Assembly (NCBI GenBank): GCA_002900555.1
Contig: MUGD01000067.1
Location: forward strand, 1-10,610
Origin: Thermoplasmata archaeon M9B2D
GTDB taxonomy: Archaea; Thermoplasmatota; E2; DHVEG-1
Length of the DNA: 10,610 bases
Reading direction: 5' to 3'
The position numbers were made by a program, and so were the translations under genes. Shown one piece after another: positions 1 to 4,761 of this stretch (its first letter is position 1; the number at the start of each line of letters is the position of its first letter). Below the pieces are notes generated by a model that saw only the letters and a list, made by a program, of their open reading frames with translations, made no database searches and had not been told where the DNA came from.

Positions 1-1009
1 AGACTGCCAATTTGGATGTAATCCGAATACTCCCGATCTTCTATGTGACGATTGTAGTACACGCGCGTTGAATGGAAAGAAGCTCGAATCGTCTACAAGG
101 AAAATGCGAGTTGTCAATTTGCCTTTATCAACAACAGAGGATCGCCTAATAGGCGCCCTAGATATCGAGCGTGTTCTTCAAGAAGGCATCCGCGCCTTTA
201 AACCAGGAATACTTGCAGAAGCTCATCAAAATGTCCTTTATGTCGACGAAGTGAATCTCCTACCAGACCACCTTGTTGATGATCTTCTTGATGCAGCGGC
301 AACGAAAATTAATACGATTGAACGAGAGGGCATCTCAATCTCACATCCTTCCAATTTTATCTTGATTGGGACAATGAATCCGGAAGAGGGTGAGCTGCGT
401 CCACAACTACTGGACCGTTTTGCCCTACACATTGCAGTAGGATCAAATCACTCCATCGAGGAACGTATGGAACTTGTCAGACGAAATCTTGAGTTTGAAA
501 GGGCTCCCGATAAGTTCAGAGAAGATTGGTCAGATGAACAGCTAGATCTCGAAAAGAAAATACTTAATGCTAAAGAACTCCTCGAATCTGTGGAGCTTGA
601 TGATATTAATTTGCGTGCAATAGCGATGGCATGCGATGCCCTTGAGGTCGATGGTGTTCGACCTGACATTGTAATCAGTAAGACTGCTATCACCCATGCA
701 GCATTTCAAGGTCGTTCATATGTAGATCTTGAAGACATGAAGATTGCATCCCAACTTGCTCTCAGTCACAGAACAAGACGAGGAGGTCTCCTAGAGCCTC
801 CTTCCCCTGATGATATTGACAGAGCAATAACCAGAGCAATTGAGGTTTCAAAGAAGAAAGATCGACGAAAATCACCAACCGCAGTTCCACAAGAAGATAC
901 CGATTCTTCTGAAAAGGAAGAGAGGCGTAGCGGAGGACGCTTCGGTAGGCAGTCCACTTTTGCCCAATTCGGAAGGCAAGAAGGCAAAAAAAAACTCCGG
1001 GAAAAATAA
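1..1009 (+). CDS. Magnesium-chelatase I-like AAA+ ATPase (BchI/ChlI family), 5' partial
   Basis: The frame is open from the left edge, so the start and the Walker A loop lie outside the window; 335 codons are visible. The visible part opens with the Cys-rich insert of chelatase I subunits (C-x3-C-N-P-N-T-P, then C-D-D-C, positions 5-55). Walker B (NVLYVDEVNLL, about 233-265) and sensor 1 with the arginine-finger region (GTMNPEEGELRPQLLDRF, about 368-421) follow, then the helical lid. In the known family this ATPase forms a hexamer that drives metal insertion into a tetrapyrrole together with a VWA-containing D subunit. The last 45 or so residues are charged and low in complexity, longer than in ordinary BchI and similar to the acidic/proline linker of D subunits. 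The frame stops 13 bases after an A9 run, 44 bases before the next gene. The metal and substrate are unknown: nothing here points to chlorophyll synthesis, and cobalt or nickel chelation or a non-tetrapyrrole role are possible. Confidence 0.9.
   Translation, partial: DCQFGCNPNTPDLLCDDCSTRALNGKKLESSTRKMRVVNLPLSTTEDRLIGALDIERVLQEGIRAFKPGILAEAHQNVLYVDEVNLLPDHLVDDLLDAAATKINTIEREGISISHPSNFILIGTMNPEEGELRPQLLDRFALHIAVGSNHSIEERMELVRRNLEFERAPDKFREDWSDEQLDLEKKILNAKELLESVELDDINLRAIAMACDALEVDGVRPDIVISKTAITHAAFQGRSYVDLEDMKIASQLALSHRTRRGGLLEPPSPDDIDRAITRAIEVSKKKDRRKSPTAVPQEDTDSSEKEERRSGGRFGRQSTFAQFGRQEGKKKLREK
986..994 (+). other. A9 homopolymer; candidate -1 frameshift site joining the ATPase and VWA frames
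   Basis: Nine A residues are read in frame as three AAA lysine codons, followed by CTC CGG GAA AAA TAA. Slipping back by one base gives ACT CCG GGA AAA ATA and so on. That frame has no stop up to ATG 1054, which is in the same frame, so it continues directly into the VWA protein. Purine-rich, SD-like GGAAGG (971-976) lies 9 bases upstream, about the spacing of the stimulatory SD element of bacterial dnaX frameshifting. No strong downstream stem-loop is visible; TCCC/GGGA (1026-1038) gives only a 4-bp stem. A sequencing or assembly indel (A10 read as A9) would produce the same picture. Confidence 0.5.
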
Positions 1010-1053
1010 GAAACCCAGCTGGAAATCCCATTAAGGGAACTATATGCGCCATT

Positions 1054-2484
1054 ATGATGGTTGCAGTATTTTCATACTTCCTATGGATTTTTGTAAGTCC
1101 GATTAACTGGCTATTTGGCTATTGGATTCTTCAATTTCCACCTCTCCATGTACTGCTTATTGATACAGTCATCTTCATCCCTCTCATGTGGCGATTAATA
1201 CGTAAATGGCTTGAGGTCATGACTCGACGAAATAGTGGACCCACAGCAGGAATTGACACTGTAGAGCCTGGAGATGCAAAACCTGAAGACGGTGATGAGT
1301 GGGGGCTTGCTACGAGACCTTACAAACCAGAAAAGCCAAGTCTCATTACTGGACCAAAATCTGAAATCCGAGATTCACCATTTGGTTTGGATGATGGATT
1401 CTTTGTTAAATTACCAGATATAGATACTGGAGAAGAGATCTTTGATACTGCCAAGCTTCAGAAGAGGGCTATGATCCGTTCAAGAGTTACAACTGGGGGT
1501 TGGATTAACAAACGTGTGAGTTCACGAGCAATGGGCTCTCTCAAAGCCTCCGACACATTAAAACAGGGAAGACCAATTCGTTTCCGTATTCCTTCTCATG
1601 AGATAAGTAATATCCATATTCCCGCTACGGTTATGACAGCAATTGCACGATCTGGTCGTATGCTTGAACTACCAATACGGATAGAGCGAGAAGATATACG
1701 CGAGAGTATGTTCACGGGGAAAACACCTTTGACAATTATCCTTGTTATTGATGTAAGTCTGTCAATGAAAGGTAGTATGGAGGAAGTTAGGCAATTTCTA
1801 GAACGTATTGAGCGTGAAACCCGTGGATCAAAGGATAGAACTGGGATTATTGCATTCAAAGATAGTGGAGCAATTGAAGTCCAAGCTCCAACCACAAATT
1901 GGAATAAGATCTATCGAGCTCTGGGCCGCTTGAAAGTTTCTGGACTGACACCGCTTGCAGAAGCCCTCCGGAAAGCAATGGAAACCATTCAAAGGGAGCG
2001 TATGAGAAATCCTAACATCGAACCGCTTTTGATTATTGTTTCTGATTTTTCGCCTAATATCCCATTGGCACAATCTGCTGGTCCAGGACATGACCAGTAT
2101 ACACCGGTCCAAGACCTCATTCGAACATCTCGATTGATACGAAAAGCCAAGATTCGATTGGCTGCAGTTAACGTCGATCCTGAACAGAGCAAATGGCCTA
2201 GATTCTTGAAGCGCCCCTACCATGAGGCTCTTGAATTAGCTACAATGTTAAGAACTCGCAAGGAGGGATTTAGTGATCCCATTGAAACTATTCTTGCAAT
2301 CGATGAATTTCGGAAGTCATTCGGTGCGTATCTAGTCGCTCGTTCTGGTGGAGGACGAGCATATCTTTCACGTGATCTAATGAAAGAAAGGTCTATACTG
2401 AAGGCATTATTGAGTACAGGTCGTTCAAAATCACGCCTCCGTGAAGAGGATTTACGAACTGTTGATGCTTACCTTCCCGAATGA
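1054..2484 (+). CDS. Membrane-anchored VWA-domain protein, chelatase D-like partner of the upstream ATPase
   Basis: 476 residues. Residues 2-22 and 31-50 are strongly hydrophobic and look like two membrane helices, followed by a basic stretch (RLIRKWLEVMTRR). Residues 60-220 form a polar linker region of unknown fold. A von Willebrand factor A domain follows from about 225, with a recognisable MIDAS metal site: D233-x-S235-x-S237 (DVSLS), T299 in GLTPL, and D331 in SDFS. The order linker-VWA and the neighbour resemble the C-terminal half of chelatase D subunits, where the VWA domain recruits the ATPase ring. Membrane helices are not usual in BchD/ChlD; they recall MoxR/VWA (Bat-type) systems. 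The ATG at 1054 is the only good start, but its ribosome-binding site is weak (AAGGGA, 15 bases upstream). This fits the idea that the frame may also be entered by a -1 shift from the upstream gene. Domain call is firm, biological role open. Confidence 0.85.
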   Translation: MMVAVFSYFLWIFVSPINWLFGYWILQFPPLHVLLIDTVIFIPLMWRLIRKWLEVMTRRNSGPTAGIDTVEPGDAKPEDGDEWGLATRPYKPEKPSLITGPKSEIRDSPFGLDDGFFVKLPDIDTGEEIFDTAKLQKRAMIRSRVTTGGWINKRVSSRAMGSLKASDTLKQGRPIRFRIPSHEISNIHIPATVMTAIARSGRMLELPIRIEREDIRESMFTGKTPLTIILVIDVSLSMKGSMEEVRQFLERIERETRGSKDRTGIIAFKDSGAIEVQAPTTNWNKIYRALGRLKVSGLTPLAEALRKAMETIQRERMRNPNIEPLLIIVSDFSPNIPLAQSAGPGHDQYTPVQDLIRTSRLIRKAKIRLAAVNVDPEQSKWPRFLKRPYHEALELATMLRTRKEGFSDPIETILAIDEFRKSFGAYLVARSGGGRAYLSRDLMKERSILKALLSTGRSKSRLREEDLRTVDAYLPE

Positions 2485-2666: not shown

Positions 2667-3677
2667 ATGCTTCCAGGTAAAGTGCCACCGGAAATTCTCA
2701 GCAGAATTGTCTTCACGCACCTCGGAGTATTGGATTCATCTGTAATTCTTGGACCAAGACTCGGAGAAGATGCCTCGCTTATTCAAATTGATGAACACGT
2801 AATAGTTGTTTCCACAGATCCTATTACTGGGTCCAAGGAAGACATAGGCTGGCTGGCTGTTCATGTTAATGCAAACGATGTTGCAACCTTTGGAGTGGCT
2901 CCCAGATGGTTCTTAATTTCAATTCTGTTGCCTAATGGAACTACGCCTGAGGAGTTAGGAAAGATAATGGAACAGATAGACAATGCCGCCAAGACATTGA
3001 ACATTGCTGTTGTGGGGGGTCATTCTGAGATAACGGAAAGAATTGACCGACCAATTATTGTGGGCTTTATGATGGGGATCACAAAGAAAGATCAGTTTGT
3101 TACGTCAAAAGGGGCACAACCAGGAGATGCATTGCTGATGACCAAGACTGCGGCCATCGAGGGAACTGCTATTCTTGCCAACGAGGGATATGAGACGCTC
3201 ACTAAAACAATTGATGATCGTGTTATTAAAGCTGCAAGCAAATTAAGAGAGCAGATCAGCGTTGTTAAGGATGGAGTTCACGCTTTTGGAACAGGTTATG
3301 TTCATGCAATGCACGATCCAACTGAAGGAGGACTTGCAGGTGGAATCCATGAATTATGTGATGCAAGCACTCTTGGATTTGAGGTTAATTACGACAAGAT
3401 TCCTATAGCCACACCAACTAGACTCATTTGTGAGGAACTTCAGATTAATCCTCTTGAACTCATCAGCAGCGGAACAATGATTATGAGTTGCTCTCCAGAA
3501 AATGTGGAATCTCTTATTACAGCTATGAAAAGCGAAGGGGTTGATACCACAGCTATTGGTTCTCTGACAAGTGATCCTAAGCACAGGAAGATGCACATCG
3601 ATGGAAAGACCATAGATTTAGAAAGACCCACTACTGATGCTCTTTGGAGTGGTCTAAGAAAGATCAATCCGACATGA
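2667..3677 (+). CDS. AIR synthase-related protein, HypE-like but lacking the C-terminal cysteine
   Basis: 336 residues. The start is fixed by a strong ribosome-binding site, GGAGGAG (2652-2658), 8 bases before ATG. The protein has the PurM/HypE/ThiL/SelD architecture. The N-terminal ATP-binding half carries GEDA (33-36), STDP (49-52) and VNANDVATFG (67-76), then GGHSE (117-121). The C-terminal half carries MHDPTEGGLAGG (215-226) and ISSGTM (266-271), both typical of HypE. HypE dehydrates a thiocarbamoyl group on its own C-terminal cysteine (usually ...PRIC) to make the cyanide ligand of NiFe hydrogenase. Here the protein ends RKINPT with no cysteine, so classical HypE chemistry is unlikely. 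A related ATP-dependent reaction on an unknown carbonyl or amide substrate is the safer statement. Its 3' end overlaps surE, on the other strand, by 14 bases. No other hyp genes are in the window. Confidence 0.85.
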   Translation: MLPGKVPPEILSRIVFTHLGVLDSSVILGPRLGEDASLIQIDEHVIVVSTDPITGSKEDIGWLAVHVNANDVATFGVAPRWFLISILLPNGTTPEELGKIMEQIDNAAKTLNIAVVGGHSEITERIDRPIIVGFMMGITKKDQFVTSKGAQPGDALLMTKTAAIEGTAILANEGYETLTKTIDDRVIKAASKLREQISVVKDGVHAFGTGYVHAMHDPTEGGLAGGIHELCDASTLGFEVNYDKIPIATPTRLICEELQINPLELISSGTMIMSCSPENVESLITAMKSEGVDTTAIGSLTSDPKHRKMHIDGKTIDLERPTTDALWSGLRKINPT

Positions 3678-4571: not shown

Positions 4572-4742
4572 TTACAAGTCGTAGCCTTTGAGGGTCTTTC
4601 GCTTGTTCTCATTTGTCCTCTTTGCAGCGGCGTCAAGCATCATCTCGATTTTCTTATCGACAGCGCCATAGAAGTCACCGCTGACCTGAAGGTTCTTTTT
4701 CTTAGCATAGTCCTGAATTGCTTTCTTAACGACAAAACTCAT
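4572..4742 (-). CDS. Small histone-fold protein, DUF1931 type
   Basis: 56 residues starting at ATG 4742. A TTG 12 bases upstream would add four residues, but it lies only one base from the GGAGG site (4756-4760) and so is disfavoured. The sequence follows the compact archaeal DUF1931 pattern: MSFVVKKAIQDY helix, SGDFYGAVDKKIEMMLDAAAKR long helix (residues 21-42), then N-x-RKT (48-50) and a closing DL (55-56). R48 and D55 match the R/D pair that closes the histone fold. The protein ends where the third helix of normal histones would begin, so the fold has a shortened alpha-3. It probably forms dimers and may bind DNA; the third-helix tetramer contacts used by HMf-type histones would be missing. 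It is monocistronic, with its own promoter and terminator, consistent with strong expression. Confidence 0.85.
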   Translation of the reverse strand: MSFVVKKAIQDYAKKKNLQVSGDFYGAVDKKIEMMLDAAAKRTNENKRKTLKGYDL

Positions 4743-4761
4743 TGTCTCTATCAATCCTCCT

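Follow-up and report, generated by a model that had tools for sequence, protein, structure and literature searches.

A conserved candidate -1 recoding site between the AAA+ and VWA frames of an archaeal chelatase-like gene

Introduction

Two reading frames overlap near the beginning of contig MUGD01000067.1 of Thermoplasmata archaeon M9B2D (assembly GCA_002900555.1), one encoding an AAA+ ATPase that resembles the I subunit of magnesium chelatases, the other a protein with a VWA domain. The whole stretch of DNA analysed, 10,610 nucleotides long, is called here the window. The question raised by this locus is whether the two frames are separate genes, a single gene split by an error in the sequence, or a single gene from which two proteins are made by a change of frame. 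Comparison with relatives indicates that a recoding site, either ribosomal or transcriptional in kind, is very probably present and conserved. The locus is probably one gene, in which a programmed -1 ribosomal frameshift would give an I-type AAA+ protein and a D-type protein carrying AAA+, membrane-hairpin and VWA parts.

The junction in the window

The elements of the junction, all on the plus strand, are the following.

2-1009 (open reading frame), plus strand: AAA+ ATPase (I-type) frame; its 5' part is lost at the window edge, and the A run is read in it as AAA AAA AAA
971-976, plus strand: GGAAGG, similar to a Shine-Dalgarno (SD) sequence, nine bases before the A run; unconserved
986-994, plus strand: A9 slip run, with the in-register heptamer A_AAA_AAA at 988-994
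994-1053, plus strand: bridge in the -1 (VWA) frame, TPGKIRNPAGNPIKGTICAI; it includes the first residues of membrane segment 1
1007-1009, plus strand: TAA, the 0-frame stop that would end the short product; its position is conserved
1054-2484, plus strand: VWA-domain frame in the form given by gene callers; VWA_2, E 2.5e-13

The run is directly preceded by C985. No stop interrupts the -1 frame between the run and the ATG at 1054, nor from there up to the stop at 2484. A preliminary description of this DNA had called attention to an A9 run, an ATPase stop soon after it and a stop-free -1 path into the VWA frame, as well as to a GGAAGG nine bases 5' of the run, and all of these are found in the window as described.

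Ribosomes holding frame on A_AAA_AAA would end at 1007-1009 and release a soluble AAA+ protein of the I type. Those slipping back by one base would cross the bridge and make a D-type protein, in which the AAA+ domain is followed by a basic linker, a two-helix membrane hairpin and a VWA domain of the MIDAS type. Short and long forms may assemble into one AAA+ ring of mixed composition, anchored at the membrane and with the VWA domain in the cytoplasm. Both the ribosomal nature of the slippage and its rate are what we infer from the comparisons given below.

Conservation of the run, the stop and the bridge

Of 181 loci, 80 were taken for comparison. Thirty-two of them (L001-L032) are relatives that align over the VWA frame in full or for the most part, at 56-88% identity, and 31 of these are titled Thorarchaeota, Lokiarchaeota or simply archaeon; the other 48 of the 80, all weak bacterial matches, were excluded. 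Where relatives carry organism names, Thorarchaeota prevail; Odinarchaeota and Lokiarchaeota occur once each, and Promethearchaeota a few times. The VWA gene was also found in 41 of the 47 genomes from the class of one relative (the Thor class below), and 30 loci and 10 further stretches were used; G041, where the match has no N-terminal part, was left out, as was a second piece of G036. Together with the window, 73 stretches gave 42 junctions that are distinct over the 300 bases around the VWA start (the window and 41 relatives). Two of the 42, L015 and L120, come from the same bin (G042). The junctions are related sequences, so that the counts obtained from them are not independent.

A -1 shift is needed in 38 of the 42 junctions; three (L014, L019 and L120) are fused in frame, and one (L001) needs a +1 shift. 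The maximal A-run length around the junction is 9 in 31 cases, 10 in six, 11 in four and 7 in one, and is thus at least nine bases in 41 of the 42. Among the 38 junctions of the -1 class the figures are 30 (A9), four (A10), three (A11) and one (A7). Outside the junction, A runs of at least nine bases occur three times in 409,740 bases of the oriented loci, same strand; the runs at the junctions exceed what chance would give. The phase is held while the length of the run varies, which is not what an error or a neutral run would do. The heptamer A_AAA_AAA lies in the register of the 0 frame in all 38 loci of the -1 class, 10 of which also have A_AAA_AAG, and the lysine codons of the run are AAA in 42/42 and 41/41 cases, compared with 457/1116 in VWA genes. 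The proposal that one locus could yield both an I-like and a membrane-anchored D-like protein by -1 fusion is in keeping with these data, since run and stop-free bridge persist together in the 38 junctions.

In 34 of the 38 loci the stop closing the 0 frame keeps a constant distance to the VWA start (those of the other four are at -56, -2, -2 and +1). Codons of the VWA frame overlapping this stop are of a restricted kind. Isoleucine is encoded by ATA in 22/24 cases (309/1464 elsewhere in VWA genes), valine by GTA or GTG in 16/18 (600/1427) and arginine by AGR in 38/41 (692/1795). Codon choice over the 0-frame stop is biased in the direction that would keep the stop.

The bridge is constrained as well. 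In its codons from -45 to -1, read in the VWA frame, mean pairwise differences are 0.22, 0.12 and 0.60 at codon positions 1, 2 and 3, respectively; in the first 150 bases past the VWA ATG they are 0.45, 0.29 and 0.64 (41 loci). A pattern of this kind marks translated sequence, and the bridge therefore evolves as coding sequence 5' of the VWA ATG. In 8 of the 42 junctions the run starts inside a VWA-frame stop codon, and entry into the frame must therefore take place by a slip on or after the run.

SD-like motifs just 5' of the run are strong in 15/42 loci, and a looser 4-mer is found in 30/42. The GGAAGG noticed in the window is real, but is not a conserved element, given how few loci have a strong motif, and a conserved SD-like stimulator was rejected for the same reason.

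A predicted membrane hairpin after the slip site

The VWA frame encodes, close to the junction, two hydrophobic segments.

1039-1095, plus strand: predicted membrane helix 1, from hydropathy only; it spans the annotated ATG
1144-1200, plus strand: predicted membrane helix 2, from hydropathy only; the pair has a positive flank on either side

Both segments reach a hydropathy of at least 1.3 in all 41 loci scored, and of at least 1.6 in 39 of the 41 (L120 is too short to be scored). In the same 41 loci, the loop is less positive than either flank of the pair. The charge pattern is that expected of a hairpin whose two ends lie in the cytoplasm, a topology predicted from hydropathy alone. Similar pairs of segments are found in the linkers of the fused genes that make up the nearest group in the AAA+ tree described below (L122-L126), and also in L128. 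Among the 120 matches listed, out of 7129 protein matches in all, two segments separate the AAA+ lid from the VWA domain in 31 and none do so in 89, three of which (P0122-P0124) are VWA-only proteins for which a linker count is not meaningful. Most separate database entries for a 'VWA domain-containing protein' start at or near the inner ATG, which suggests that they cut through a predicted membrane helix.

Relationship to chelatases

The ATPase piece matches the NCBIfam models TIGR02442 (E 2e-109) and TIGR02030, the BchI/ChlI model (E 2e-86), in both cases under the whole-protein cut-off, the piece being truncated at its 5' end. TIGR02442 is matched by both halves in order, the ATPase covering profile positions 57-349 and the VWA frame positions 394-618; bit scores are 366.8 and 101.9 against a curated cut-off of 779, the halves being scored apart and the first cut by the window edge. 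Solved structures matching the ATPase are ChlI 8osf (E 8e-74), ChlI 6l8d and BchI 1g8p, and the VWA frame matches only the BchD VWA domain 2x31 (E 1e-4). A Walker A motif is found in 31 of 32 relatives checked, the remaining one being cut by its contig. DVSLS, encoded at 1750-1764, is taken here to be the MIDAS-like motif of the VWA domain.

These similarities uphold the domain order of a chelatase D subunit (AAA+, linker, VWA) that the preliminary description had recognised. A chelatase function is doubtful. No CobN/ChlH large subunit (PF02514) was found in the 47 genomes of the Thor class (nor in 10 genomes in another count), mostly draft bins of unstated completeness and not including the window's own genome; L023 lies on a contig whose title calls it a chromosome. 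PF02514 was matched in 5 of 14 control genomes, and in 44 of 227 genomes of the phylum.

A tree of AAA+ domains was built from 68 rows, among which the window and 14 of the 40 Thor relatives (every third); L182, too short, was left out. The tree is midpoint-rooted for drawing only, and five long-branched rows stand beside the root. Thor rows form one clade (100/100), adjoining the group of fused genes with hairpins (99/94). Twelve copies located near CobN form a clade of their own (96/94; 100/100 against the Thor group), in which no Thor rows fall. G049 and G124 each have one copy near CobN and a separate one. Because the Thor clade stands apart from the copies near CobN, and CobN/ChlH is not found in the class, the window gene is most likely not the chelatase paralogue, and its being a true chelatase subunit was judged unlikely. 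Its target would be something other than a CobN-type chelatase.

The AAA+ gene was detected in 43 of the 47 class genomes, with one match in 41, two pieces in G042 and a second, weak match in G031 (E 3e-8). Since 41 of the 43 have a single match, no separate ChlI is seen in the class.

Ribosomal frameshifting and alternative explanations

Two loci favour the ribosome as the agent of slippage. The long run is lost in L021 (A5GA3), but a heptamer directly before the stop is present, CC[A AAA AAA]TAA; L025 holds both sites. L021 and L025 share a long stem that starts 9 nt after the A7 heptamer (z -2.89 and -3.89). Of its 27 pairs, 3 are changed on both sides; 98% of the cells are paired, a fraction that falls to 56% or less once the alignment is slid. 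Heptamer, stop and stem have the classic layout of a ribosomal -1 signal, and ribosomal slippage is favoured for this reason. Over the 90 nt after the run, mean fold z is -0.66, versus 0.06 in a control stretch (41 loci). Chelatase cassettes assayed in E. coli are reported to give frameshifting of 63, 40 and 10% for A11, A9 and A7 (PMC3711429).

Several observations weigh against a programmed ribosomal frameshift. No consensus structure emerged downstream of the run (0 pairs over 28 of the 42 sequences), the window folds there with a z of only -0.26, and z is below -2 in 3/42 loci (L025, L023 and L021); a downstream stimulatory structure as a general feature was rejected. The shuffle control for the two-sequence stem of L021 and L025 is weak (60/500), and runs of A9-A11 fit slippage by RNA polymerase as well. 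L001 is discordant, at +1. L014, L019 and L120 are fused, a fused relative of L014 occurs among the proteins (P0121, 89%), and the separate short form may accordingly not be needed, or may arise in another way. Among the fused sister-group genes, no A run of at least seven bases was seen in the linker stretch examined, and genomes G111, G113 and G116, which carry fused genes, have one AAA+ copy each and no second ChlI-like gene. The family thus does not strictly depend on a free I-type protein, and the argument that the shift is required since a separate chlI is absent is weakened. The G042 bin contains a split piece with A9 (L015) and a fused piece with A10 (L120), which may reflect strain variation, a mixed bin or a homopolymer error.

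Programmed transcriptional slippage is the rival that survives best, although it seems unlikely on balance. The polymerase would add an A on the A9-A11 run, part of the mRNA would read into the VWA frame, and the same two proteins would result. The length of the run, at least nine bases in 41/42 junctions, goes beyond the seven that a ribosome needs, the downstream stem is not conserved, and the three fused loci keep the hidden stop of the other frame, as if both states gave both products. Polymerase slippage fits poorly, on the other hand, with L021, which has only A7 and A5GA3 and yet displays heptamer, stop and a stem 9 nt away. It fits no better with five loci of the Asgard phylum, described in the next section, that need a +1 shift with TTTTTTCG in the overlap, where the T run is short for slippage by a polymerase.

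Two separate genes, with an independent start of the VWA protein at 1054 that might be coupled to the ATPase stop, are highly improbable. An ATG is found at the position equivalent to 1054 in 37/42 loci, and gene callers annotate most relatives as separate genes; yet conservation at the protein level continues 5' of this ATG, and the first hydrophobic segment spans it. In-frame ATG, GTG or TTG codons between -66 and -1 are missing from 30 of the 42 bridges, and the 12 others have one, at scattered places. The ribosome-binding site of the VWA gene had been described as poor, and in fact no SD-like 4-mer is found at -16 to -4 of the VWA ATG in any of the 42 loci. Bridge conservation, lack of an SD-like 4-mer and the position of segment 1 make an independent start unlikely as the main route.

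The weakest alternative, an A9/A10 mistake made in sequencing or assembly, or else an indel of recent date, in a gene whose true form would be a single fused frame, was already set against the -1 reading in the preliminary description and is very unlikely, because, although homopolymers are prone to error and fused forms exist (three relatives, the sister-group genes and the G042 bin with both A9 and A10), as a general explanation it is contradicted by 38/42 junctions from many separate assemblies that share the -1 phase at four different run lengths, with AAA codons kept in the run and constraint on the 0-frame stop.

Other loci of the Asgard phylum

Sixty further loci of the Asgard phylum were classified; a second batch of 20 among them was picked for short open frames, and is not a random sample. 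Forty-one of the 60 are fused, three need -1, five need +1, four are broken in the AAA+ domain and one has masked bases; the remaining six, mostly at a contig end, are without the AAA+ part. The three -1 loci (L130, L131 and L132) each have an A10 run. All five +1 loci (L134, L135, L136, L141 and L158) contain TTTTTTCG in the overlap, and TTTTTTCGN is an apparent +1 recoding site in their AAA+/VWA linker. UUU_CGN is a known kind of +1 site, as in influenza PA-X.

It may tentatively be supposed that the AAA+/VWA linker of Asgard archaea is a standing recoding site, working by -1 on A9-A11 or on A7 with a stem-loop, by +1 on TTTTTTCGN, or fused with the run still present and out-of-frame stops close by. 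Selection would then keep the ratio of free AAA+ to AAA+/VWA protein, and not a given signal. In the Thor class the balance would be between soluble and membrane-tethered subunits of an AAA+ machine of the MIDAS type, one that does not act as a metal chelatase.

Seven fused loci (L161, L162, L164, L165, L129, L133 and L170) have kept T7C or A9-A11 runs in their linkers and, a few codons off, stops in the shifted frames, as though a shift there might give the short form. Both runs and stops turn up by chance in AT-rich sequence of this kind, so that hidden stops in fused relatives are only a lead. In four genomes (L151, L152, L153 and L155) the AAA+ gene is broken at the same spot, within the conserved motif NPE|GELRPQ. 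The break is a short insertion that contains an in-frame stop, and coding resumes right after it in another frame. The insertion resembles a small intron, or an element that is bypassed; the region folds with a z of -2.40 in L153.

Flanking genes

2667-3677, plus strand: AIR-synthase-like gene, similar to HypE, ThiL and SelD, all below NCBIfam cut-offs

In 31 of 32 loci this gene directly follows VWA; the exception is L024, whose contig is short. A small archaeal histone-like protein of 60 amino acids is encoded at 4572-4754 on the minus strand (Pfam CBFD_NFYB_HMF, 19.9 bits against a cut-off of 21.4), and is also found near the locus in 22 of 32 relatives, within the stretches available.

Comparison with known systems

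Frameshifted magnesium chelatase genes (fs-chlD) were reported in 2013 in bacteria, Methanocaldococcus and Methanococcus (PMC3711429; reviews PMC5009743 and PMC8211752). With the Methanocaldococcus and Methanococcus cases published, an archaeal chelatase-type frameshift is in itself already known. The preliminary description had held that an archaeal case with membrane helices at the junction would be new. Archaeal fs-chlD had thus been named before, but the two hydrophobic segments are real and conserved, and the portions of the fs-chlD literature consulted do not mention a two-helix feature at the shift site. According to PMC9227772, fs-chlD genes occur across major phyla, archaea included, and also in anaerobes without CobN/ChlH, their function being unexplored there; a downstream stimulatory RNA structure is given in that paper as usual rather than required.

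Our locus resembles fs-chlD in having AAA+ followed by VWA with a poly-A -1 site in between, in the short I-like and long D-like products that would be made, and in its occurrence in archaea and in genomes where CobN/ChlH is not found. Overlapping AAA+ and VWA frames needing -1 are kept in relatives (38/42), and the A_AAA_AAR-type site appears under purifying selection, being found in 38/38 loci with a bias for AAA. The usual downstream structure is not general here (z below -2 in L021, L025 and L023 only). The locus further differs in the two hydrophobic helices placed right after the shift site, in belonging to an Asgard clade, in the one pair of relatives that has a second A7 site with a stem, and in the TTTTTTCGN +1 sites of other loci of the phylum. 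Compared with BchD/ChlD proteins of the TIGR02442 type, both halves match in order, but each is below the cut-off alone, a membrane hairpin is present, and CobN/ChlH is found in 0 of 47 genomes.

A single archaeal -1 programmed frameshift, that of fucA1, is counted as reported in a 2021 review (PMC8211752). The Saccharolobus solfataricus gene likewise shifts by -1 in an archaeal cellular gene, but yields a single enzyme, at about 5% in E. coli. No description of a frameshift in this Asgard clade, of the hairpin or of the variety of signals was found in the open literature, searched mostly by title and beginning of the abstract. As far as the searched papers go, the Asgard clade, the two helices after the slip site, the count of 0 of 47 class genomes for CobN/ChlH and the five +1 loci are new.

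A recoding signal kept in 38/42 Asgard-class junctions would make a strong test case for archaeal recoding. From this gene an AAA+ protein would be made with or without a membrane anchor and VWA arm, which bears on what AAA+/VWA pairs do in the absence of a chelatase large subunit. A comparable logic is known from E. coli dnaX, in which a -1 frameshift at A_AAA_AAG makes two AAA+ subunits in a set ratio from one gene. The likeness lies in the two AAA+ subunits encoded by one gene; in dnaX the short form is made by shifting, whereas here it would be the long one.

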